64,000 nucleotides of DNA. It comes from Ceratodon purpureus (lineage: Eukaryota > Streptophyta > Bryopsida > Pseudoditrichales > Ditrichaceae). The notes under the pieces are model-generated. The model was not told where the DNA came from, searched no databases, and saw only the letters and a list, made by a program, of their open reading frames with translations. Within the stretch, counting starts at the first letter, position 1, and each line of letters starts with the position of its first letter. The translations under genes were made by a program, and so were the position numbers. The DNA lies in the NCBI GenBank assembly GCA_014871385.1, contig CM026421.1, positions 13,865,117 through 13,929,116 on the forward strand. The letters are read 5' to 3'. Of the stretch, positions 1 through 56,810 are shown piece by piece.

Positions 1-3000
1 GGAGGCGAATATGGAACCCTCAGACGTGGTTTCACATGATTCGCCATCAACGTCTGCCCTCCAACAGAGCCAAGCTTCGAAGCCTCCGAGCTCCCTGCTC
101 CATCAATCGGATACAGTTGATCGGGTAAGTCATGGACAGACGCTGGAGAGGCAGGTCGGCTATCATCCAACCCCCCAAAAGTAGACCCCTCGGAGAAGAA
201 CCCTTTGAAACGGGTCGCATATAGAGCTGCTGCAGTCGGACTCATGTCGCCTACATAACCAGTAGTGCCTGGAAATAAAGGCTCAGATTGTTGGACATGT
301 TCTGGCACCAAGAGGCGGTGGAAGCTGTTGACGGGATCGATCTCCTTCTCCAATCCTGTCTGGAAGCTGGGCTCGGAACTGGAGCTGCACTGACTGAGGT
401 TGCCGAAGTGGTTGCCCCAGATATCATACACCAGCTCCCCTGAGCTTTGCCCAGAAAAGGATGTGCTCGCATGCCAGGAATCGCGGGAACTATCCTCAAT
501 GCGGCCACCGTGCAGATCAGGACTTGGAGTTATTCCAAGGCTGCTCCAACTTGGTTCACTTGTGGGAGCCTGTTTTGTTATCTTGGCTCCGGGGGCTCGT
601 AGTGCCGGTGCAATGGCAGGTGGGGGAACAACAAACGTATCGAATGAATCGATCCCAAAGTCACATAAACTGGCCCGTGATTCTCCAGGACGAGAATTTA
701 GCCGTGGAAACGAAGCTGAGGTTGTGAAAGAGGCAGCAGATACAGTTCCATCTTCCGACCCTGTAAAAGCATCATATCCTACCTTCTGGTGAGGATGACG
801 ACTCGCTCTATACGAGTGGCTTCCATCGCCAGATTCTGACCCCTTGCTAGAGCCAGTGCTTGACGGCTTCTTACGAGCAACGGCAGCCCATTCACTAAAA
901 TTGCTCTTCCTGCTAACACTTGGCCCCCGGCCCCTCTCCAAAGGTGATGGCCTGCGATGCTCCGCTGCTTTGCCTTGCAGCCTCGGTTGCAACTGAGAAG
1001 GGGTAGCAATACTACGCCGAGGACTCTCGGTCGCTGAGGTGACCGGTGCACGGTTGGTAACTTTTGGTGAGTTAAGTATTTTCACCTTCAGCTTTGGAAG
1101 TGGTGCAGCCTCTGCAAGGTCTACAGATCCCATGCTTCGTGGGCTCAGCGACGCTGTTGATTGATCAGATTTCTTATCAGGAGATGGAGGACTAACAGGC
1201 CATGTGGAACGGAAGGGTGCCACTGGAGAGGTAGGTGATGCAGGTGACACACCTCCACTAGTACCCAAATGTGAAGCCACATCATGCTTGCTAGATTTCT
1301 TCCTTCGCTTCCTCTTCTCACGTTCAACTGGTTGAGCGCAAGGTGAACCTGTCTTCTGAGCCACTGGGACGCATGAATAGGTGCTTGTAATATTCTTAGG
1401 TGACTCTTTGATGGAAGAATCGATAATAGGACCTGTACTTTGTGCAGGTGCTATCACTTGTATTGGTTCTATTTCTTGCACGGGAGCAGTTGCTACTGTT
1501 TCATCCTTCACAACTCTGCTGACATCGACAGAATCCTCCACGCAAACGGCATGCTTTGCTGAAGTATTTTCTGGCCTCAAAAACTTTGACGCCTTAGGCT
1601 GCTTCACAGAGGATGGATGATGGTTTGAGTCCCTAGGCGTAACAGGTGAACCACCACCCGACGGCTCACCATTACCTTTACTATTCCGGCTCTGCTCGGA
1701 CTTAGCAGAGCCACTATTTTTCCTATCTGCGCTTCCTTTCCGACCCCCTGTCTGCACTGATCCTGGCCCAGATGCACCAGACCCCCCTGTTGATGACTTC
1801 GGCAGTGGTGTGGCAGATGGTGCAGGTGTCGGCGCTGGTGTCACAGAGCGAGGAAGACTATAGTCCGGGGAGGGCGTATTACAATCCTTCGTCCATAACG
1901 AGGATCCAAATGCTGTCCAGATACCATCTACGACCGTAGCAAGAGCTCCCCAGCCCCACATCTTCAGGATCTTATTTCTCTTCTTTATAAGAGGGCTGAC
2001 TCGACTCATGCTTCTTCGATGACATCCGCCGCCTTTTCCAATGTCGCCCGACAGTGTAGGTAATTCTGTGTCATGTACAACTACATGGAAGAAAACCAGT
2101 GTCCCTACCAAAAGTCCACAAATGAGCAAACCCATGAACACCTTGTAATCCATAAGCAAGTCAGTGATACCCAGTTGACCTGTGTGAGAGCCTTCGAGGT
2201 CCCCACCTGTTCCTAGGCTTCCAGTCCCAAACGCCATCGCAGGAGGGGACTGTAAACACTGCAACACCATAGCCCTGTACGGAATCTCGATTAGGTGACC
2301 GATGGTGCTGTTGGTGCGGACGATGATCTTTTGCGACCTCTTGCACGCGCTGGACTCGTAAGGCTGATTCTGGCCACTGTACGTGACATTAGCTACTTCG
2401 GTCTCCGAATTTGGTAGCAAGATTTTACCCTTTTTGTAATCAATTTTAATTTTCGAATCAACAGGCACTTCATATACATCCTCTACCTGCAACAGAAGAC
2501 AAACGATAAAATCTTCATCAGCATTGAATATTGAGGTAACTGCAGGTATCCTAGAAGTCCAAAAAGAACCCTAGCCTTTCAAGTGAATTAGGAAGCACAA
2601 AACAATAACCGCAGATAAAATAAAATAGACGAAGACTAGGGGACTATTCCTCAACTATTGGCTAACCATTAGCTAGAGCAAAGCCATGGTCAATGATGAA
2701 CGTTAAATACGAGCAGCTTCGACCAGAACGAGGTCTCCAGTCAAATAATATTCAACACATTGGTCAAAAAAAGAATGGGGTACAATGTTCTGACCTGCAC
2801 TAACTGCTCGCCGGAATTTTGAAGGACCAAGGGCTGCGAGCTTGCCTGATCACCAACCAGCATCCCAAAGTCCAATGTATGAGGAACTGACAGCACAGGT
2901 GACGGCCGAGAGACTCTTGAGCTGAACGGGTATACTAAAGTAATCCCCTTACTATCGAGAGATGGCCCAGTAACTCGAATGTGAAACAACCCCCTAAAGA

Positions 3001-4434
3001 CTTCCCCTTGATTCAGGCATATTTTGAAATCTAAGATGTCCCCACTGGTTTGACCTGGAAGTTCCCATGTTTCCCCTACTCTCATCAAAAGTCCATCTTC
3101 ATTCTGACTATTATTCCCGTCTTGTTTCAAGCACTCTTCTTGTGCTTCAATAACAATTTCATTTTCTAAGGTGGATAAGCTAACAAGATCCGGAGATCTC
3201 TTCCTTTCTTCACTGCTCTCATCATCCCTTTTCGGCGTGACTACAGCTTCCTCCACAAATAAGGTATCTTTAAAAGGGTTGAAGATGGAAATCACATAGT
3301 GCGACTTCTCATGCACCCTAACCTTCATCTTGTACAGAGATGCAACGCCTTCCCCTTGTAATTGCACTACTAGCGGTTCTGTTCTGGTTTCTATAATTAT
3401 ACTCCCTCTGGCTGCTCCCACGTATGCAGGTAAGTAATACACAGGAAGTTTTAGAGTTCCACCGGGTGCAAGAAATTTCTCAGAGAATCCAGTGACAAAA
3501 AACTGTCTGTTATCACTTTTAGCCGCTAATAGTGATAGTTTTGAGCCATTGCATGAGTTCATGATAGTCAGGAAGGCCACCTGGCGCTGGTGCAAGGGTT
3601 GTTGCCCAAACTCAAGTAGAGAAGGGAAAACAGGACCGTCCGAATTACACGAGGAGCTTCTGTCCTCGGAGGATACCTTGGAACAATCACACAATTCAGA
3701 AGCCCCATCGGCTTCAAGAGCAGGAAACAAATCAGGAGCAGCACATGTCACTTGCTGGCCAGATCGAACAAGGGCTCTACATGATTGTAGCTCAACCTTT
3801 CCGTCTAGTGCTGGAATGTGCGCTTCAGACTGAAATGAATCTACAGAGGAGTCAAAACTGCTCTGCTCGCTATTTTGCTCCTCCTGTGCATTCTCTACTA
3901 CAGGTCCACTGGTCACATCGTCATTTCTCTTCTCAGGACCTCCACTATCGACGCTTTGGGAGGCTGTCTCAACATCCAAATCTGCAATGACAGGTGTGTG
4001 GCAACCATAAGTTCTCTTGAAAGAAAAGTGACTCATTCAACATGCACAACTCATAACTCAATTGCGACACAAATATCAAGCTCATGCTTCTATCAGTACG
4101 CCAACTTGTTACTTCAATCAATATTCATCAATCAATACCTACCGTGTTCTACAAGTTATCAGTGATATAGAACCTAAGTTTCTATGATCGAAAATCTAAG
4201 ACTTGGTGAGCCATGTTCAAAAATATGTGTATACAAAGATTTTGTACAAATAACACCCATTCCTTGGAAGATGCTGCACAAAACATTACCTTTAAAAGTA
4301 ACTTCTAAAATCTCCTGCCCGTCACCAAGGGATGATAGACTATCTGTGTCTGCTTGAGCTTTGCCGATCTCGGCATTTGCCATCGATGGCATGCAAAGTA
4401 GCAGAAACAACAGCGCCCACGTAAGAAACAGCAT
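1..4434 (-). CDS. TMEM131-like transmembrane protein, partial (3' end beyond window)
   Basis: Three exons are modelled on the minus strand: 4434-4290 (phase 1), 3981-2795 (phase 0) and 2486-1, which is open to the window edge. This gives about 1,272 residues so far. The chosen ATG opens a clean signal peptide (MLFLTWALLFLLLCMPSMANA). An acidic, Ser-rich stretch follows, then the PapD/Ig-like region of the TMEM131 family (for example VPHTLDFGMLVG), then one membrane helix at about residues 550-575 (FMGLLICGLLVGTLVFF), then a long Ser/Pro/Lys-rich cytosolic tail. The tail holds a KRKRRKK cluster followed by SP-rich repeats and a late YDIWGNHFG motif, both as I recall from plant members. Animal TMEM131 works in ER-to-Golgi export of secretory cargo; the plant role is unclear, so function here is inference. 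An in-frame ATG upstream at 4560 would add 42 residues ahead of the signal peptide and is less likely. Confidence 0.85.
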
Positions 4435-44718: not shown

Positions 44719-44852
44719 TTCACATGTGATTTGAATTATTGATTGTTCAATGGTGAGTTGATCCATGGAAAAAGATTGGACCCGGAGAGCCGTTAATTTG
44801 ACTTCTACAATGACATGGTATCATGCACAGAGCGTGATGCACAGCTTTAGCG

Positions 44853-45088
44853 GGTCTCTCTATTTCCCCCCATCAAGCGGTGCTGCCGCCCCTCGCGCGG
44901 GCAGGGGCAGCGCCCGATGGGCGGACGCTCGTTCTCCTCGACGCTCGCGTTCCCTGGTTCCCCCGAGGTCCCCCGTCGTCGGGTTCCACGGTCCCCCTCC
45001 CCGCCCCGTGCCCGTGGAGGCCCCCGTCCCCGTTCTCCCCCGCCCCGCCTGGCAAGACCGTGCCCCCCCTTCCCCCCCGCGGGACTTC
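44853..45088 (+). repeat. left terminal inverted repeat, 236 bp
   Basis: Reverse complement of 56575-56810 with about five mismatches and no gaps by eye (about 98%). Very GC-rich, so it is free of stop codons in several frames; those frames are not genes. Confidence 0.92.
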
Positions 45089-46075
45089 TCATCCGTCGTC
45101 GACGCGTCATCCAAGGGGTCGTCTCTCTCGCGCCGGCTTTTGTTCCGCGTCATTATTCTCGCCGCCGCCGGAGAGGGTTGGCGGAACTGCTCCTCCATGG
45201 CGGGTTTGAATCGAGCTTGGAGGTGGATCTGGACAATGGAGTCGACGGTCTTCTTCGAATTTTGTATGATCATCATGCAGTGGAGGCCGGACTCGTAGAG
45301 ATCCGCGCGGTTCAGAAGCGGGTGGACGTTTGCATAGGTGAAACGCTGATGTCGTCGACGGTGGTCATGTTCGAGGGTTGCCACGAACGAGCCGATTCTC
45401 ATGGGCGAGGGCGGTGGAGAATGCGTGGTGCGACCTGCTGCGGATGACATAGAGGACGACCTGAGCTTTTTTCCCGATGATGGTTTGGGTTCTGGCGGGT
45501 TTCATGAATCGACATTGCATGAAGGAGGTGGTGAGAAGGAACTGGCCGGGCGACATGAATGTAGTACTCAACCCCCTCCACATGTTGGTGATCACCTGGG
45601 TTCTAGGGTCGACATCTCTGCAGTCGGAGAGGACTGGACCTGGGAAGGTGATGTCCATGTCGACAAACTTGCAGGACAGGGGAGACAGGACTACTCTCCC
45701 AAGAAACCTGTAGAAGAATCGCTGGATGGTCGGACTGCTAGCATCCGCTGTGTTTGCCAACGACTCTCTTCTGGGAGCGATGTAGGTGAGGGTAGAGGAG
45801 GGTTGCAGGAGGAACGGCAAAATTCGGACTTCCAAGACCTAAGTAAAGGGGATCTGGATCGGGAAGCCCTTGCTGCAAGTTCTGCATGTGAAGAGGACGT
45901 TTTCGGGCGACATCGTCCATCCGGCAGCCATGGAAGACTTGAAGAGATTGACCTAAATGTCTCCACAATTGGAAACGGAGAGCTTGCCGGCACTGATGAG
46001 CGACCTGTCCGGAACAGCGATGGAGATTAACTGCAGCCTTCTGGACACCCCATTGTTGATGATGCTGGGACAGAG
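45089..46075. other. 5' region of transposase gene; possible coding on either strand
   Basis: A plus-strand frame from 45401 (acidic, about 209 codons) runs in phase into the transposase frame, interrupted by TAA at 46028-46030. It may be the true N-terminus. The opposite strand carries a 156-codon frame (45835-45365) with a rather protein-like composition, which could be a captured gene fragment. The choice is unresolved. Confidence 0.35.
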
Positions 46076-46795
46076 ATGGAGGAAGAGAAGGTACCAAGAA
46101 AACGGTGGAGGAAAATGGAGGAGAAGGTGCGGGACTCTGTCCAGAAACCCCCACCAGGGCCATTCAGCCGAGTTGACCTAGTTTGGACCGCTAAGGACAA
46201 TGTGGGCAACGGGAAACGAAGACAAACACAGAAAGCCACAATTCCCTGGGATAGGCTGGACGACTTCTTGGAAGGAGAGATGTCTGGGCGACAACATCCC
46301 TGTACCTTTGTGGAAGTCTCGAAGCAGTGCATGAAGAACGACGTGAGGAAACAGACCCGGGCTGAATCTGCTCTTCAAGAAATCAGGTTTGTTAGTCGAC
46401 CTTCATCATTCCTAGTATTTCATAATTTCAGCATGTTTCCTTCTAGCCCTAATCATTTTTGTTTACTTGCTGTGCTGATCCACAGTTTTCATACTGTCCT
46501 TCTTTCTAATTCGAATTTTGAATTACACTCTATATATAAGTATCACTGTGGCTGCTGTTGGTGTAAATTATTCTCTTCTGTGTCTTGGAAGATTCCTTAC
46601 CTTGCCGATTCCAGTAATCCCAAAATTGAGTTCCGTTGTGACTGAACTGTGCCTGTCCTGAGCAGTTACTGGTGCCAGTACAGACCGGAGGATTTGAGGC
46701 GAAAGTACAACCAGACAGTGCAAAAGGTTTTTGCCCACACCTTGGTGCAGAGGAAGAATTCCACAAACGCAAAAAAAACTCTGAAACGTGCTGAG

Positions 46796-46798
46796 TAG
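46796..46798 (+). other. in-frame TAG in gene A
   Basis: The frame continues directly into a Lys-rich linker after GCT GAG TAG CTG. CAG (Gln) is the simplest ancestor. Confidence 0.8.
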
Positions 46799-47206
46799 CT
46801 GGTCGAAAAGCCAGCTAAGGAGGCTGAAAAAAAAAACAAACCAAAGAAGAAGGCCAAGCAGCAACCCACTATAGATTTGAATGAGGAAGCTGAAGATGAG
46901 GATGAAGAGGAGTTAGCACGGGTTCAAGAAGCACAAGAGCAGCTGATGCAGGCCCAAGCCCTCATTGAGGCAGCTACCAAGCCTACAAGGAAAACCAGGG
47001 TTAGCAAGGTTCAGGGCGGGATGTCCTTGAAACGGGGGTGCCAATGTAACTTTGTAGCCAAGCAGCTTCTTGTCGAACCAACCCTTTGTATAATTCATTT
47101 CCATTGTATGTCGCATACTAACAGGGAGGGGAAACCGTGCCATGGAGCAGAGTTTGGGGGCCAGAGGGCGGGTCTGTCCGGACACCTGTCCGCACAGACC
47201 AAGAAG

Positions 47207-47209
47207 TGA
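47207..47209 (+). other. in-frame TGA in gene A
   Basis: It lies between the Cys/His cluster and the DDE core. The frame continues IADTLRSGKSPAQVM, which reads as normal family sequence. CGA (Arg) is the simplest ancestor. Confidence 0.8.
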
Positions 47210-49053
47210 ATAGCAGACACACTTCGTTCAGGGAAGTCTCCAGCACAGGTAATGGCAGACCACAAGGCCGAAGTGATGAGGTGTGCACAGCTAAACCTTC
47301 CAGCCACGAGGGACACTTTCATTATGCCATCGGATGTCTACAACATTGCGAACAAGTTGGCGAAGGAATTGTGGGAGAAGCATCCTAGCGATGCAATGAG
47401 TGTCAGACTCTGGACGGATGAGAACCCGGACAGCTGGTTCCATTACAGGGAATATGGGACAGTACAGCTGAATGAGCCACCACCTCCCGAAGATGACCCT
47501 TTCTGCTTAGCAATTCAGACTGAGTGGCAGCTCGACATGATGATTAGGCATGGCCATGGGAGGGCCTTATCCATGGACGCCACTTTCTCCACCAATGTCG
47601 CAGGGGTATTACACTTAATCCCATTTTACATTTTCCATTCTTTCAAAATCTTGATTTTTATTTTATCCCCGACTTGAGAATTCTGACTCTGTCCGGAATT
47701 TCCACTGTCTTGGTTTCCTTGCAGTTCCCCCTTTACACAGTCATGGTCTTCGATGAGTGGGAACAAGGCATCCCAGTGGCTTTTGCCATTCAAGGGCGAA
47801 ATCGTGAGGTGGACATCGTGCCATGGATGACCAAGCTACGAGATCGATGTTTGGCCATCAAGCCAGACTGGAGACCAAACGCATTTCTTGTAGATAATGA
47901 TCAGGCGGAACTGAACGCCATTAGGTACGGACACAGTCACCTTCTTAACTGTTGTAATTCAATTCTTTACTGCGTTCTCTCATCCGGACATGGCATGACA
48001 AATTACCCCGGACAGGGCTTTACGGTGACCATTTCATATCCAGATGGACTGATATTTCTGGAACACTGCAGGAAAGTTTGGCCAGAGGCTGAGCCTGTTG
48101 AGGGGCAGAAGAAGCAAGAAGTGGCCATACTATTATGTCTTTGGCATACGAGGAAGGCGTGGCTGGAAAATGCCACTCAGAAAATCAAGGCAAACTACTT
48201 ACGGGCGGAGATTCTCGCAGCCTGTGCAGATCTCATGTACGGCAATGGTATCCTCCAAGGAGATTTGGCTGTCCAGGCTGCAAGGGAGCGCTTCCAATTC
48301 ATCAAAGCTAAGTATCCCCAAGCAAAGGCGTTCTTTGTGTACTTTGAAACACATTGGATCCCAAAAATCGAGATGTGGGTGAAGGGGTTCAGGAACATGC
48401 CCCATGCAAACCAAGACACGAACGCTGCAGTTGAAAGCTACCATGCTAATCTGAAGGCCCTTCTGAGGATGTCCCGTTCGAAGTTCGATGGTAGGAGAGT
48501 AGACTGGCTGATTTATCACTTACTGAAGGATGTGCTTATTCACTATTGGTATGCTGTCCAGCTTAAGCTGTATGGATTCATCAAGAACGGGAGAGCAGAA
48601 GGCATCGTTGCAAGTGCAGTGATTCGAGCCGAAGAAATTCCGGATGAGCATGTCAAGATATGTGAGGAGCAGGATATTGCTTATGTTGCATCCTCGAACC
48701 ACTTTCCTACAATATGGGTAGTGACCAGTCCAAACTCGGACTGGGCCCATTGCAACTGCCCACTTGGTATGCGCGGGAATGTTTGCAAACATGCAATCAA
48801 GGTTTTTAACATGATAAACGTTGGGGTACATCCGGGAGATATTATCAGGTATGCTGGTACACTTAGGGGAACCATTCAGGTGGGGTTCAAGCCAGCTGGA
48901 ATTTCAGAATTAGCCGATGTTGGGGTGGCGGAGGTCATTCCGGACAGAGGAAAACAGCCTGCCAGAGATGATGACCCGGAGACATCAATGCGAGATATCG
49001 ATGCTGTCCTGGCCGTACTCAGGGTAGATGCATGGGACAATCCAGCATTAAGA

Positions 49054-49056
49054 TAG
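49054..49056 (+). other. in-frame TAG near the gene A C-terminus
   Basis: The same frame continues for 71 further codons (NFLAMLNENKGKFASLKV ...) to TAG at 49270-49272, with protein-like composition. CAG is the simplest ancestor. Confidence 0.65.
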
Positions 49057-49272
49057 AACTTTCTGGCAATGCTGAATGAGAACAAGGGCAAGTTTGCGTC
49101 CTTGAAGGTGAAGGCAGCAGCTGGGCTGCTTCATCAACTCTCTCAACCTTCATTTAAGAAGACAGATGGTCCGAAGAACCTTAGGAGGTTCAAGGCATGC
49201 TCTGAGACGGGAGCTAAGAAGTGGGGGGGCAGTCTAGGAAGTGGAATTAGTCTGTTACATTTCAGTACATAG

Positions 49273-50977
49273 AGGTTGTATTAAACCATTTTTTTAATAA
49301 ATATAAATTTTATACGTGTAATGAATGTTTCTCTGCACATCCCTCTGACTGTTTCTCTGGTTTTTTATATCCCTGGTTGCTATATGAGTTTCAGGACATG
49401 CCTGTAAGTTTATTTACTTTACAAAGTCAGACTTTAGTCCTGTCCGGATATACGTGCTCCTATCCGGATGTGTGGTGAGTGGTAGTCTCATCCTACCCCC
49501 ACCCCATAGACCAAGTCCGCTGTATATTCTCTCACGCCACCTTTACCCTTCATTTGTACCTTCTCCCAGTCGTCTATCTTCCTCCTGGGCATTTCATCAT
49601 TATATTTCCTTCTCATAATTTTTGTATGTTCCATTCACTTCCTCAGCCATCCCCTACTAATCCCCTAAGAGCCGAACTCATACAATCTCATGTTGTTATC
49701 TTCTTATTTTTTTCCATATCTGTGATTTTTACTTTTTTTGTTTAAAATTTTGTGAAATTATTTTTTCTACCCCAATCGACCACTCTCTCAATGTTGTCTC
49801 CGATCTTTTACGTACTCAATCTCATACCCCCTATCGTTTAATTTTTTTTTTTTTACTTTTTTCCCACTTATTTATTTTCCCATTCTTACATTCTACCTCC
49901 ACTTCCCCTCAATCGTCTCTCCCTTTCGAACTCATACTCTCCCTAAAATCCCCTTGTACTCCCTTTCACTCCAATGTTTTTTTCAATTTATTAATTTCAT
50001 TTTTAATGTTTCATTCCACTTAATAATTTCGGCTCTCTTTCTTTATACTCTCACTTCCTTCCACTCATCTCTTCCCCCATCCCATACTTAACCTCTTACC
50101 CCCTTTTTTATATTTTATTTTTTTTCTCATCTTTTTTTTTTTTTTTTTAATTTTTTAATTCAATCTTCTTTGTTTCAGCATACTCTCACGTCCTTTCACT
50201 CGTCTCTCCCCCCTCTCATACTGACCCCCTTACTCCCTTGCACCCATTTTTTTTTTTTTTTTTCAACCTTCTCTCTTCCAGCATACTCCCACTTCCTTTC
50301 AGTCGTCTCTGCCCCTTCTCATACGCTTCCCCTTACCTCTTTTCACACTTTTTTTTTTTTTTTTCTGTGGTTTTGTAATTTTTTAAATTTTTTTTTTTTT
50401 TAATTTTCCGTTTAAACCTTCTCCTCCCTTCTTCCTCAATATTCCCCACACCATTTCTGAAATTAATGGTTTTTATTTTTTCCCCTTCGTTTTTTTTCAG
50501 TTAACCTTGCATTTTCTTTCGCCTTTTTCTTTTTCATTTTCTCTCCAGGACAGTGGAGGGGTCTCCCTAAACCCGGACAGGTTGGGCAAGCCTGCTGGCG
50601 AGAACGGAGATCAAACAAAAAAACAACAACATACAAGACACTCAAAACTGCATCACACTTGAGCATGGAGGTCTGGTTCGGATAATAACCGTGTATCACA
50701 ATCGTTCTGTACACTCGGTCTATGTCATTGTCTGCCAAAAATTGTGTCTGCTGAAATTGTTTTAATATCCTAAAGACAGGTAGTCCGGAAAGAAATCCTA
50801 AAAATTAAAAAAAACAAAGGCATGATAGGAGTATTTTTCTGTTCTGTCAACTAGCCACGCCCACTACTACCATAGACAGGGACACTAGACACTCGGTAGG
50901 ATAACAACGGGCTCAGTGGTCTGCCTGTCCGGATCGTCACCTTCCACTGGTGCCTCCAACTTCTCGGCCACAGGGGG
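49273..50977. repeat. pyrimidine-rich spacer between the convergent genes
   Basis: From about 49480 to 50520 the plus strand is mostly C and T, with repeated poly-T runs of 10-18 and recurring CTCCC/CACTTCC-type phrases. No gene was seen. It may hold the 3' ends of both transposon genes. Confidence 0.7.
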
Positions 50978-51933
50978 CTACACGGCCGTCGCGGGGGTTT
51001 CGAAGTCTAGGTCCCAGGGGTCGTCGCCGGAACGTGAGGGGCTGGGATGACGTGGGCTCGGTAAGGCGGGCTCGGTGTGGGCGAGGACTCTGAGCTTGTC
51101 AAGGGTACACAGAATCTGGGAAGGCCTGAACTCATCCAAGTCTTCCAAATCCTCCGTCATGTTCCACACCTGCAGTTTGCCGTGAAGATGATGCACGTTG
51201 TCCCGTTGGAGCTCCGTCGCTGCCTCGAACAGGGCATCTCCACCCGCCCCGTCCGGCCAGGTCTGGTGGCCTCCAAGGAGCCGAAAATGTACCCCAAGTC
51301 TAAGTTCTCCCTGTATAATAGGACTGTCCGGAAAGCATTGGCGACCTTCTCCTTCTCCACACCTGCTCTCTCAACCCACATGTCCCGGAGCAGGTCCGTC
51401 TTCCCCAACGCCAGTGTATCAAGACAGGCACGTACGAAAGTATCTCGCCTCCAGCCGTTGAACTGTGCCACCTGCCCCCCCCGATCCACACAGTCGTCTA
51501 CAACCAACCTAAAAGTCTCGAAGGATTCTCCATCTAAGTCCATTGTTGGGAAGAAAATCTTACCCACTCTGATGAGCTCCTCCATGGCGAGCAAAATCTC
51601 GTCAGACCGCCCCTCCATGAAGTCATCGGTGAGTCCTAGGACTGGACAGAGCATGGATATACGAGCTCCCAACTCGCTCCTCGCAAACAGCTTAAGTGCC
51701 CGTGCCATGTGCGGTGGCTCGTTAACTTCTCCGATCCTCCTCCCCTCCATCTCCATCCACTTCAGAAGTCCTTCAAACTCCTCGTCTGAATGCTCATACG
51801 GCCTCGTGATGCACTTGAGTTGAGGGGCCAAGAAGAAATCCCGGAAGAAGGGCGACCACCACCACTCATCCTCCTCCTCAGCCTTCCTTATCATCTGGTC
51901 ATAACGGGCCATCTCCTCAGCCAGATACGCGTG

Positions 51934-51936
51934 TCA
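51934..51936 (-). other. in-frame TGA in gene B
   Basis: It sits in GAC CGC AAT TGA CAC. The frame runs on into HAYLAEEMARYDQMIRKAEE with the same helical, acidic character. CGA (Arg) is the simplest ancestor. Confidence 0.7.
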
Positions 51937-54602
51937 ATTGCGGTCCACCTGCTCAATCTCTCCCTCGAATTGATGTTGCTTGGCCAGGAAAGTAAGTACA
52001 TCGTCTTGGTGGAGGTAGAACAAATGAATCTCCTTCCTGATGTCGACCTCGGACTTGTAAGTGAAGGCTGTCTTGCACCTTTCAAGTCCAGCCACGATTT
52101 CTACGGGTAACGAGTCCTGAAACAGGCCAGTCATCCCCACACGTTAGTGCATTTCCGTTTCTCTGTCACACCATGTCCCCTACTCCAATCCATCCTGACC
52201 ACAGCATTATCTTCAGAAATCAGCCAAAAGGTAGAAAAGCCTGTCCGGAACACTTACCACGAGATCGGGATTGAATTGTAGGGCGCCCCATGCCGCGGAA
52301 ACCCTACCAGCTAACTGTCCCTGCGAGTGGAGGCTCCGAAGTTCATCCATTGGTGCCTGGAGGTCGCCCATTTTGTCCCCCGTGATTATCCCTCCTATGA
52401 TCTCCTGAAGACAATACAACCCCGGAGGCTGGCCAGGCCCGCGTGGAGCACTCTCGGGGTCGACACTGGGGAAGAGTTCCTTAGCCCGGGATATAGCGGC
52501 CACCTTAACCGCACGCCTCGCCTTCACTCCCTCGTCCTCAACCAAAATCGGCGGATGTCCGACTGTGTTACAGTCAAGGGGCGTCGTCGCAGCTGCTGGT
52601 CCCCTCTCACCCCCTTCCACAATCACATCGTTGCCTAGGGAGTGTAGTGCAGCTCGAACGAGTTTAACTTCTTCCTTGGCCGGGCTTGGAGTCTCACCAT
52701 GCAACCTCCTCCTCTTCGACACGGTGAACTTCAATCTGGTCTTGCCCCCCTTTGTCCCTGCCTCACCGCCTTCCTTCTGTTCCTCTGATCCACGGCCTGC
52801 CCCTCCATGCACCTGTCCTGATATCTTCTCCTTCCCCTTCACCGAGCCAATCCCCCCCTCCTCTTCCAATTGGCCAGCTCCCTCTACAGCATCCCCCTTC
52901 GTCGTCTTCCCTCCATGAGAAGGCCCGCCAGGTCCGCAATTCTGCCCTTCGGACTTGGCCGAGCTCCCCTTCTTGGTCCCCCTCTTTGCCGTCCCCTCCT
53001 GATCCAGCCCTCCTCGCAGTCCCTGCAGTATTTCTGCAATACAGGGCCCTTCGTCTAGCTGGAGGCGCCTCTTCACTCCGGCCTCCCAGTCATTCCGCCC
53101 GTCGCCCTGTATTTTTCCTCCTTCAACGCCTACCCGGTCCTCCGAGTTTCCCAGCGCAGCCCCCGCGTCCCCAGCATCGCCGTGGTCCAGGTCGTCCCCC
53201 TCGCCCTCGTCACCCCCTTCCCCCACTCCGCCCCCGTCGCTGCCCCCGTCGGTGCTTGCCCCGTCCTCGCTGCCGCCCTCCAAACCGACCGTCTCTTCCC
53301 CCTCGTCGCTGCTCCCATCGTCATTCTCTTCCTGAGAATTCCCATTGTCCGATCCAGCGTCTGCCCCCTGCTCTTGCTTCCGTTTGCCGCCCTCCGTTGC
53401 AATCTGCCGGCCATCTTCGTCCTCTCTTTCCCTTTCGCTAATTCCCCCCACCTTCTTCTTCCTTCCGCCCGCACGCCCTCCCTTCGTCTTCTCCTTCACC
53501 TTCCCTCCCCTCCCTTTACTTCCCCCTTCACCGGCCCCTCCTCCCCCGGCCCATACCCACTTCCCCCTACTCTTCTCTGCACCCCGCTTCACCTGCTTCT
53601 TCCCCCTTTTCCCGCGCCCTCCGTCCTCACCTTCCCCCCCGCTCTCGTTCCACACCCATTTCCCGGTGGTTTTTTTGGCCCCCCTCACACTCCTGCGACG
53701 GCCTGCATCAGGGCGTTCTCCCCGCTCCGGACTGCTCAGCTCCACGACCTCCTTCACGTTTCCCGGATTCGGTGTAGCTGCCTGTAACTTCTGCTCCCCA
53801 TCCTCCCCGTCACCGTCAGTGGCCCCTTCCGCCTCCTTCCCTAAACCCTCACCTTCCTCTTCGGAAGACGTCTCCCTCTGGTCCCGCTTCGTCCCCTTCT
53901 TTTTTTTCTTCTTTGCTTGCACCGGCTCCTGTCGCTTCCCCAACATCTGCCACGGTATCCGAAGGTTGTACTTCTGGAAAACCGCCCGGGCAACCTTGTT
54001 CCCGTCGAGACCTCTGGCCGGGTAAATCTTGAGTGGCCCGTAGTCTCTATATTTGTAACAAGGACAATGCCCCATCTTCCTGTGCCACCCCAGAGTTGCT
54101 TTGTCGCAGAATTCTTGGTCGCAGTACTTGCAAATAAAAGGTATCTTGAACCGGCTCTTACCCTTTTCCTGCTCTCTCTCCTCCTCTGCTCTATACTTCC
54201 AATTCACCTCGACCATCATGAAGTCGTGTTCTGTGGTCGTGAAGGCGTCTCGATTCGGCTCATACCCTGCAGCGACACTTGTGCAGACCACCACTTCCTC
54301 CATCCCGAACTTTCCCTGAACCAGTAGCTGACGATTCCCATAACACATTTCAGTAACGACACTCCCCTAAACATTAGACTGAACCTAAACCCCTAAGTCA
54401 AAGAATGGATATGCACTTGAATAATTAGTGAAGTGTATAAAAGGCTTACCCCTGGTACGATCCCTGGTTCGGCTGTCCGTATCTTCTTCTGCCATTCCTT
54501 GGACAGAGTTTTAACATCGAGGAAAGTTGCTCTGTTCTTTAACACGTCCACTGCATCTTCCTTGGACAGCTTGGACAGGTCCGGCAATTCCGGATTGTTT
54601 AT

Positions 54603-55027
54603 CTGCCCATTAAGAACATACGAAGGTTAGCTGACACAGAACAAATTCGAGAAGGAAACCGCAGAGCATAAGGAAGTTGTGGATGGCAAACTACCGATCC
54701 AAACAGAGAGGAGAAGACAGTGGAGAATTTCAGGACATGCGATTATTTCAAGACAGGCGAGTACAGAGGCCTAGAGGATAACAGGGTGTAGGGAAAGAAA
54801 GGTACAAAGTAGTATCACGCAAAAAGGGGTCCTAGTCGAGAAATAGCGGGAAGGAGGGGAAAAAAGTAAAGGAAGAGGATGAGCGGTAACTAAAGGAAAA
54901 ACAGAAAGCGAATGCAAATCCAAAGAATATAAAATAAATAAGAAAATCCAATTAAAAAAGAAAAATAAAAAAAGAAAATGAAACTCTGGATGAATTCGTG
55001 AGAGAAGGCGGAGATTAAAATAAATAA

Positions 55028-55122
<95 letters not shown>

Positions 55123-55357
55123 AATGAAGACAGGCATTAAGTTCAGGACAGAGCAGTAGGCAGATTCGAAGGGGAGACGGGGGAAAAAAATGGAAGGGAC
55201 CAAAAGGCAGCAAAACCATCGAGTCTCATTCGTAAAGAAGCGAAGAACATAAGCATTAAAAAAGAAAAATAGATTAAAAAATGAACATTATTTGAAAAGT
55301 TAAAGAGAAAACGTAAATCATAAAAAAGTGAAATTGATGGAGCAAGGGGAGGAAATT

Positions 55358-55388
<31 letters not shown>

Positions 55389-56209
55389 TAATAAGAGGAC
55401 GTCCGTGAATACCAAGACAGGCAAGGAACAGAATGGGAGAACTAAGACAGGTTTCAGAATCCCAGGACAGGCCACAGTGTAGAAGGAAATAAAATACGTA
55501 TCAAGAAATGAAGGCCGAAGAGATGGGCATTTCAAGACACATACTGCACGGAGGAAGAGATGAGAGAAAAAATACAATGGCAAGGAAATCAAAAAACCGA
55601 ATACAACACCAAGATAAGGAATACAAACGAAAAACTGGAAGACAGAGAACAAGCGTAAGACGAGGGACACGAAGTGAGAGAGTAGACCCTAAGCAAAGAT
55701 ATGCAGGTACAACAAATAACGAAATGAAAACAACAGAAACTCTAACCGACGATGCATGCCACACCTAATCCCAACGTCAAGCCAGGACAGCGCACATGGA
55801 GAAGGCCGTCGACTGAACTACTAAAACAACAAGAGGAAAATGACGAGAGAGAGCGGGAAATGAAGAAGACGATAACAGGACACCACCCACGAAGACTGAC
55901 TAAGGACAGATTGACCGAAGCTCGTGAGAAGAATGAGTTTACAGAAACACCCGGAAAAGGAACCTTAACCAAGAAACAAATGACAACAACCAAATCGTAA
56001 GGACATACACCGATGCAGCTAAGAAGTGACTCAAGACAGGCCGAACTAATAGAAGAAAAAACCTAAAAAATTAAAAAAATGATCCATTGAAGAATGGCAA
56101 CAATGAGGAAAAACCACGACCAACAAGACACATAAGGAGCTACTCACATTGTTAGAACAACAACAAAAACAATGAAAACGAGGAAACCATGTATTATGGG
56201 CGAACTTAC
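54603..56209 (-). other. 1.6-kb leader intron of gene B, purine-rich on the plus strand
   Basis: The donor (CTA|GTAAGT) follows a nine-codon first exon and the acceptor ATGGGCAG precedes the second. Plus-strand composition is dominated by A and G, so the intron RNA would be pyrimidine-rich. It contains the 93-nt homopolymer and many AAGACAGG/AGGACAG motifs. Confidence 0.6.
55029..55121 (+). repeat. 93-nt poly-A tract
   Basis: Ninety-three consecutive A on the plus strand, which is poly-U in the gene B transcript. A second run of 23 A lies at 55358-55380. The exact length may be affected by sequencing or assembly. Confidence 0.9.
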
Positions 56210-56574
56210 TAGGTCATACAGTTTCTTCTTCCCCATCGTCTTCAAACTCCTTCAACTTGTAACTTCGACGACGAGCTCCTTCGAACAGCAGCTACCGGCC
56301 GAGGACAGTCTCCCACATTCACCAACTCCCAGTAGCCGCTGAACCCGCTAACCCCTCCCACATTGCTCGCCTCCTTCGCTACGGTGTCCCCTACATTCCC
56401 TCCATTCGGCATCCATGTCGCCCGAACCCTAAACCGCTACTCAAAATGCAGACCATAACCCTAATCGGAAAACATCCTAACCCTCCCGCAACACCCAAGA
56501 CACGAGGTGGAAGCAAAACGCTGGCGCTCCTCGCGAGAGAGACGACGCAATGGATGAGTGGGGTGGACGCGGAT

Positions 56575-56810
56575 GAAGTCCCGCGGGGGGGAAGGGGGGG
56601 CACGGTCTCGCCGGGCGGGGCGGGGGAGAACGGGGACGGGGGCCTCCACGGGCGCGGGGCGGGGAGGGGGACCGTGGAACCCGACGACGGGGGACCCCGG
56701 GGGAACCAGGGAACGCGAGCGTCGAGGAGAACGAGCGTCCCCCCATCGGGCGCTGCCCCTGCCCGCGCGAGGGGCGGCAGCACCGCTTGATGGGGGGAAA
56801 TAGAGAGACC
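56575..56810 (-). repeat. right terminal inverted repeat, 236 bp
   Basis: Inverted partner of 44853-45088. It ends GAGAGACC, followed by host DNA TAGAGCAAAG. Confidence 0.92.

Follow-up and report, generated by a model that had tools for sequence, protein, structure and literature searches.

Structure of the element

We analysed a 64,000-nucleotide stretch of the genome of the moss Ceratodon purpureus (GenBank assembly GCA_014871385.1, contig CM026421.1, positions 13,865,117 to 13,929,116 of the forward strand; hereafter the window). It contains a Mutator-like element (MULE) with two convergent genes between terminal inverted repeats (TIRs), i.e. a transposase gene (gene A) on the + strand and a second gene (gene B) on the - strand. 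An earlier reading of the same DNA, made without database searches (hereafter the sequence-only reading), had proposed that one pair of 236-bp TIRs encloses a DDE/SWIM transposase and a convergent gene whose product it could not place, and that this may be an undescribed two-component MULE lineage. The element proved to be one damaged copy from a Mutator-like DNA transposon family that is diverse and carries two genes; in this family one residue of the gene B finger varies with one base of a short word repeated through the element.

The TIRs (44853-45088 and 56575-56810) are 236 bp long and 98% complementary, and enclose both genes as had been proposed, with the left end shifted: the ends of relatives (GGGTCTC...) placed the true left end one base outward, at 44852, so that the left TIR (GGGTCTCTCTATTTCC..., + strand) is 44852..45088. 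The right TIR (56575..56810, - strand), 98% identical to the left, lacks the outermost base present in relatives' ends, and no 9-bp duplication surrounds this copy (flanks AGCTTTAGC vs AGAGCAAAG). Both genes are damaged. Gene A has one in-frame stop and its frame ends earlier than in the relative L040, where it runs about 60 codons further; gene B is interrupted by an in-frame TGA and shifts frame near 51240. Longer open frames are present in other copies of the family.

Gene A comprises a possible N-terminal exon (46076..46384; an open frame placed here tentatively, with approximate boundaries), an N-terminal Cys/His-rich region with the first catalytic Asp region (SMDATF) and the in-frame stop (46681..47605, boundaries approximate), an exon probably carrying the second catalytic Asp (FLVDNDQAELNAI; 47725..47927, predicted splice sites) and an exon with the catalytic Glu region (DTNAAVESYHANLK) and a SWIM-type finger (48071..49056), all on the + strand. 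The names of the DDE and SWIM motifs, and hence the Asp and Glu assignments, follow what we take to be standard usage. The catalytic Glu region and the SWIM-type residues C234, C236, C245 and H247 are invariant in 16/16 rows of a gene A alignment (A3) that does not span the two Asp regions; the first of these (MDATF) is present in the aligned rows reaching that far, and the second (FLVDND) was read in the window frame. On these residues the DDE/SWIM identification is probable. Against Pfam, the window gene A protein scored 15.1 bits with MULE (PF10551, cut-off 27.6) and 16.4 bits with SWIM (cut-off 19.6). At E up to 1, PF04434 (SWIM) matched 16/16 members (best 4e-5) and DUF5575_C all 16 catalytic segments of the alignment; PF10551 matched none of these segments. 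Nothing convincing was obtained with the transposase profile against PDB sequences.

For gene B, a four-exon model was derived from splice signals and homology, entirely on the - strand. Exon 1 (MGKKKLYDL; 56210..56236), whose start resembles those of the relatives L011 and L020, is followed by intron 1 (54603..56209) and by exon 2, of 51 codons (54450..54602). Exon 3 (52258..54327) encodes a C2HC finger domain, a variable charged region and a conserved block ('Mid'), and exon 4 (50978..52116) a conserved C-terminal domain of about 330 residues, with the TGA and the frame change; the splice sites of exons 2 and 3 are predictions. The convergent orientation read earlier stands, and the length, first put at about 1,117 codons, is now about 1,130 inferred codons. 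The finger (CKYCDQEFCDKATLGWHRKMGHC; 54064..54132, - strand) has the form C-x2-C-x12-H-x5-C, with C66, C69, H82 and C88 invariant in 19 rows; the earlier description as C2H2-like gives way to a family-wide C2HC finger.

As in the earlier reading, gene B could not be placed: no family reached its curated cut-off in Pfam, NCBIfam or PHROGs. Weak Pfam matches below cut-off include C2H2 fingers, and neither NCBIfam nor PHROGs gave anything convincing. Searched against PDB, the finger domain profile retrieved generic C2H2 fingers (best, PRDM9 arrays at 6e-10), and the C-terminal domain, compared by sequence, gave best E values of 0.8 as a single sequence and 0.7 as a profile. Pfam matches of the C-terminal domain to N1221 (3/18 members, best E 0.0045), DUF218 and WH_RGF3 were weak and taken as chance. 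DUF1985 and DUF287 had no match in Pfam scans of the family at E up to 1, and no gene B relatives were confirmed in viral contigs or in bacterial and archaeal genome contigs.

Distribution of the family in the genome

The family was surveyed in the window's own genome (362.5-Mb assembly). The TIR query gave 40 matches, including the window's two, many of them in facing pairs about 11-17 kb apart (outliers 5.6 to 27 kb). The matches listed number at least 150 and at least 121 for the two gene B C-terminal queries, at least 150 for the finger query, and at least 123 and at least 132 for the transposase queries. Merging left at least 147 gene B copies and at least 149 gene A copies, which are lower bounds drawn from the best-scoring candidates.

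Gene A lies within 20 kb of 125 of the 147 listed gene B copies, always in convergent orientation (125/125); random placement linked 2.4 copies on average and 8 at most (137 B copies against the first A list of 123 copies). Seen from the A side, the 149 listed copies comprise 125 convergent with B, 2 in the same orientation and 22 without B. Some of the 22 unlinked listed B copies are partial and others nearly full length (C8:9745996, C5:1833421), and among the matches listed unlinked copies are mostly on contig C6 (16/22 for B, 21/22 for A). The suggestion of an undescribed two-component MULE lineage, to be checked by asking whether gene B homologs always lie beside SWIM-MULE transposases within TIRs, is supported by this linkage; the competing expectation, that they would be found mainly as single-copy host genes, found no such gene to sustain it in this genome. 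The enclosure by TIRs was recovered in part: paired TIRs were present in 5/7 windows fetched for whole elements (L053, L054, L055, L057 and L058), and L052 and L056 had no pair within the window fetched.

Identical 9-bp duplications flank 10/13 TIR pairs with both ends covered, and are absent in the window pair, C6:14248650 and C12:7720553; L053, L054, L055 and L057, which lie outside these 13 pairs, all have one (4/4). This length falls within the 8-11 bp described for MULE target-site duplications (PMC6446971), typically 9, and the long TIRs likewise expected of a MULE are found here (236 bp at 98%) and as facing TIR matches elsewhere. One TIR pair with a 9-bp duplication, C2:20941795-20958470, holds gene B (C2:20952922) and no gene A among the matches listed. 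L058 (C8:2417372-2422931) is a 5.6-kb internal deletion derivative with a 9-bp duplication, which retains the finger region of gene B together with the N-terminal region of gene A and lacks Mid, the C-terminal domain and the transposase core. C6, a 110.5-Mb contig making up 30% of the assembly, carries 74/147 listed gene B copies and is probably a sex chromosome; in C. purpureus, whose genome is given as 360 Mb, the U and V are each described as exceeding 100 Mb, or about 30% of it (PMC8000587).

No such family was found in the literature searched (titles and abstract starts of top-ranked papers), and the terms moss and bryophyte do not occur in the main text of a 2019 MULE survey (PMC6446971).

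Conservation of gene B

From exon 2 through the finger domain, the variable charged region and Mid to the C-terminal domain, the order is common to the window and 20 elements (the stretches retrieved for three of these, L042, L043 and L047, did not include gene A). The exceptions are the deletion derivative L058, without Mid and the C-terminal domain, L055, without a Mid match, and L046, without an exon 2 match. Gene B pieces in these 20 elements show 36-80% identity to the references, own copies excluded. Distances in A and B correlate (r 0.89 over 17 elements, 0/2000 permutations), with gene B changing faster (window to L041, 0.35 changes per column in B vs 0.046 in A). Median dN/dS (ratio of nonsynonymous to synonymous substitution rates) was 0.05 for the finger domain, 0.07 for the C-terminal domain, 0.04 for the transposase core and the gene A N-terminal region, 0.35 for exon 2 and 0.31 for Mid. 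Most pairs being saturated, these values come from 2-22 usable pairs of 120-136 per domain (of 136, finger domain 3, C-terminal domain 2, transposase core 6); from these few pairs the conserved domains look to be under constraint.

A repeated word in the window's lineage

The words of the window's lineage are CTGTCCGGA, CTGTCCTGA and CTGTCTTGA, scattered through noncoding DNA with some in coding DNA. By word count, CTGTCCGGA occurs 8 times in the window element and never in the other 52 kb of the window, and CTGTCCTGA and CTGTCTTGA show the same element-only pattern; no 9-mer (low complexity excluded) occurred more than 5 times in 100 shuffles, vs 8 for the commonest element 9-mer. The strict set, CTGTC(CGGA/CTGA/TTGA), has 14 sites in the element, spanning 46005..56039 with none in the TIRs, vs 0.4 on average and at most 2 in 200 dinucleotide shuffles; it has no site in the remaining 52 kb of the window, nor in L001-L008, 26 kb of loci found by a MULE family search. 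By eye, the flanking contexts of the 14 sites differ from each other. A relaxed set has 31 sites in the element, none of them in the TIRs, vs 7 in the other 52 kb; by our intervals, 21 fall in 5.6 kb of noncoding DNA and 10 in 5.9 kb of coding DNA. The relaxed sites of gene B intron 1 (8/8) all lie on one strand, the gene B sense strand. Over the whole element words occur on both strands, and also in coding DNA and in the intergenic region between the convergent genes (49271..50890; relaxed sites at 49391, 49441, 50545 and 50572).

The enrichment extends to relatives. At 30 TIR loci, two of them the window's own, the strict set gave 37 sites in 49.8 kb inside vs 2 in 45 kb of flank, and the relaxed set 98 inside vs 5 in the adjacent flank. 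Genome-wide, CTGTCCKGA pairs (i.e. two words within 30 bases) were found at 54 sites vs 13 for the reversed control, and 46/54 lie within 5 kb of a family match, a territory of 0.67% of the genome in which 0.36 were expected. Tandem arrays also occur: L045 has five sites at 18-bp spacing. At C1:6947644, C6:93230185 and C10:11972201 we observed arrays of CTGTCCGGA, two with a 15-bp period, inside transposase matches of 1,005 bp vs the usual 978.

Words of other lineages

A second word, CTGTCCTAA, was found in L039 (8 copies), L052 (7), L056 (6), L057 (6) and L051 (1), and not in the other elements or the controls; stray first-lineage words occur in L051-L054 and L057 (1-3 each). Genome-wide, CTGTCCTAA pairs were found at 20 sites (control 1), 20/20 within 5 kb of a family match. 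In a third lineage (L053-L055), YGTCCTGG occurs 9-18 times per element vs 0-5 times in the remaining elements and twice in the 52 kb of the window outside the element. Word density per kb outside vs inside conserved coding domains was 1.91/0.84 in lineage 1, 0.94/0.17 in lineage 2 and 1.69/1.12 in lineage 3, where 'outside' includes unconserved coding sequence.

Association between finger and word

Under the conventional helix numbering, Asn at position +3 of such a finger is usually paired with adenine. In this family the +3 residue tracks base 8 of the word, Asn going with A and Thr with G. For CTGTCCT[A/G]A, the 12 Thr elements have 29 G and 0 A, and the 4 Asn elements 3 G and 27 A (sums at base 8 leave out L058). 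For 20 elements, a subset of those listed, chosen by pair class before their finger sequences had been retrieved, +3 is Asn in 7/7 CTAA elements, and in the CKGA elements Thr in 12/13 and Met in 1/13 (L073). One of the Thr fingers, assigned by eye in L079, no longer has its ligand His. Comparison of 9 CKGA with 4 CTAA elements gave 5 fixed differences in 133 columns of the finger domain, vs 8 in 911 columns of the other A and B domains, 3 of these 8 at columns not covered in L039. The 23-residue finger itself contains a single fixed difference, N to T at +3.

On the gene B tree, a single clade (100/97) unites the nine CTGTCCKGA elements, with the CTGTCCTAA element L039 as sister (98/98), and the word switch is for this reason placed on one branch; the CTAA elements are not one clade, and the A tree is poorly resolved (CKGA group 65/91). 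A second independent switch, considered for L073 with its Met at +3, was not confirmed: L080, another element, has Asn. Near gene A of L080 we noted an array (L081; C4:10982760-10983460) alternating CTGTCATGG and GTGTCCTCT, which resembles the repeat arrays described for VANC targets.

Elsewhere in the window, the sole open frame of at least 250 codons outside the element has 431 codons (2741-4036, - strand). An Rfam search of the window gave no match.

Interpretation

The best explanation of what was found computationally, i.e. the family, the A-B linkage, the duplications, the motif enrichment and the motif-finger association, would be that the gene B protein binds the word carried by its own element and acts against silencing; as a whole we give it a probability of about 0.5. 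Gene A would be the transposase of the element and gene B a second element-encoded protein co-evolving with it. The word recognised by the C2HC finger would be CTGTCC followed by a tail specific to the lineage, present in many copies across the element's mostly noncoding DNA, and the conserved C-terminal domain would then act at the word sites, most likely by relieving host silencing as VANC does in Arabidopsis VANDALs. Binding of the word by gene B is likely in our reading; anti-silencing as its outcome is plausible by analogy.

Several observations weigh against this explanation. A single finger rarely reads nine bases, and other parts of gene B would therefore have to help. The copies share descent, so that the 20 elements are not independent events and the finger-word association is mainly one switch in the tree. 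With the looser form CTGTCYKnA the association is less clean (Thr elements 136 G and 14 A, Asn elements 29 A and 5 G), and in L073 and L074 the finger and the pair site are about 20 kb apart and may not belong to one element. Relaxed sites are not confined to the noncoding DNA of the window element: 7 lie in the other 52 kb, and 10/31 of those in the element are in coding DNA. In addition, 8/54 CTGTCCKGA pairs lie away from family matches, the reversed control giving 13. Two other lineages fit the word-finger pattern less well: the lineage with His at +3 (L051, L059) has a weak CTGTCC signal only, and the genome-wide pair test for YGTCCTGG gave 213 sites vs 193 for the reversed control. Many of the YGTCCTGG pairs are identical TGTCCTGGTGTCCTGG sites or have the form CGTCCTGG...TGTCCTGG, and these probably represent another repeat family.

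Gene B might instead be a transposition helper like mudrB, binding internal words for complex building, guidance or reinsertion, with no silencing role. The two-gene convergent layout is that of MuDR, and gene B accompanies gene A in 125/147 listed copies. According to one survey, mudrB is apparently required for integration (PMC6446971). Sites serving transposition would be expected near the ends, however, whereas the window words are absent from the TIRs and spread over the interior and the introns, and we consider a helper role unlikely, with an appreciable chance of being right. The same motif and finger data, and the greater density of words outside conserved coding domains, would also suit a transcription factor specific for its own element, whether activator or repressor, like TnpA of En/Spm, with the words serving as enhancers and no involvement of DNA methylation. 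Such a regulator is rather improbable: the likely promoters near the TIRs have fewer words beside them than do introns, intergenic and coding DNA, and regulation by itself leaves the change of word between lineages unexplained.

The word could also be read by a host factor, e.g. in splicing, or be a tandem-repeat by-product, the finger association then reflecting shared descent. Tandem arrays do exist (L045, L081), the B tree holds one well-supported motif switch, and the tails of CTGTCCTAA and CTGTCCTGA are what we take to be branch-point-like. The commonest form, CTGTCCGGA, is not, and sites lie on both strands and in intergenic and coding DNA; the branch-point reading was considered and is not favoured. 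A by-product would have to be reconciled with strict sites that are rare or absent in controls, pairs concentrated in the family and 14 window contexts unlike each other by eye, and there is in our view little chance that either version holds. Finally, MULEs tend to acquire host gene fragments (PMC6446971), and 22/147 listed B copies have no A within 20 kb, as could be expected if gene B were a captured host gene carried as a passenger. Its linkage to gene A makes this very unlikely: divergent lineages (down to about 36% C-terminal domain identity) have gene B at the corresponding convergent position, nothing resembling a single-copy host gene emerged among the copies listed, and no known family reached cut-off.

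Returning to word binding and anti-silencing by gene B, a broader proposal would be that mosses evolved self-specific, transposon-encoded anti-silencing independently of VANDALs, through a different kind of zinc-finger protein, with finger and scattered nine-base word changing together, +3 setting one base, and each lineage protecting only itself; this remains tentative and, to us, somewhat doubtful. If true, a second kind of protein doing anti-silencing, in moss, would suggest repeated evolution, and one finger with one word would offer a simple system for testing joint change of a transposon and its target word. For annotators, the family adds an unplaced protein family with at least 147 copies in one genome, which could otherwise be mistaken for host genes.

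Comparison with known systems

In MuDR, mudrA and mudrB are convergent, and gene B is several times longer than mudrB. MuDR and the moss element share two genes between long TIRs and were compared by layout alone. Mutyl of Yarrowia, compared by description only, also has a second gene, mutB, with a reported DNA-binding role; it is a fungal element with a TIR of 22 bp in the survey's table (PMC6446971), the text and table of which differ on the orientation of mutB.

Self-specific transposon anti-silencing has been described for Arabidopsis VANDALs (PMC5735166, PMC10398659). VANC21 is reported to bind a nine-base word found mainly in noncoding DNA, in one orientation and at high density in VANDAL21 (PMC5735166) and to induce methylation loss, the targets of VANC6 having other motifs (PMC5735166, PMC10398659). 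Like VANDAL21/Hiun (VANA, VANB, VANC), the moss family is a Mutator-like element with extra coding capacity, a short nine-base family-characteristic word that is mainly noncoding and in one orientation (here 8/8 in gene B intron 1), and an accessory protein less conserved than the transposase (PMC5735166, PMC10398659), as gene B is relative to gene A. As for VANC targets, a family-specific motif is dense in the family's own noncoding DNA, weakly so in L051 and L059. The two systems differ in the word, CTGTCC-based in moss and YAGTATTAY in VANDAL21, and in the protein, gene B having a C2HC finger and lacking any match (E up to 1) to DUF1985 or DUF287, the domains described for VANC (PMC5735166). 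They differ also in the number of accessory genes (one found in moss vs two) and in the presence of moss words in coding DNA, and anti-silencing in moss is proposed by analogy only. VANDAL/VANC is nevertheless the closer functional analogy, the comparison with mudrB being one of layout.

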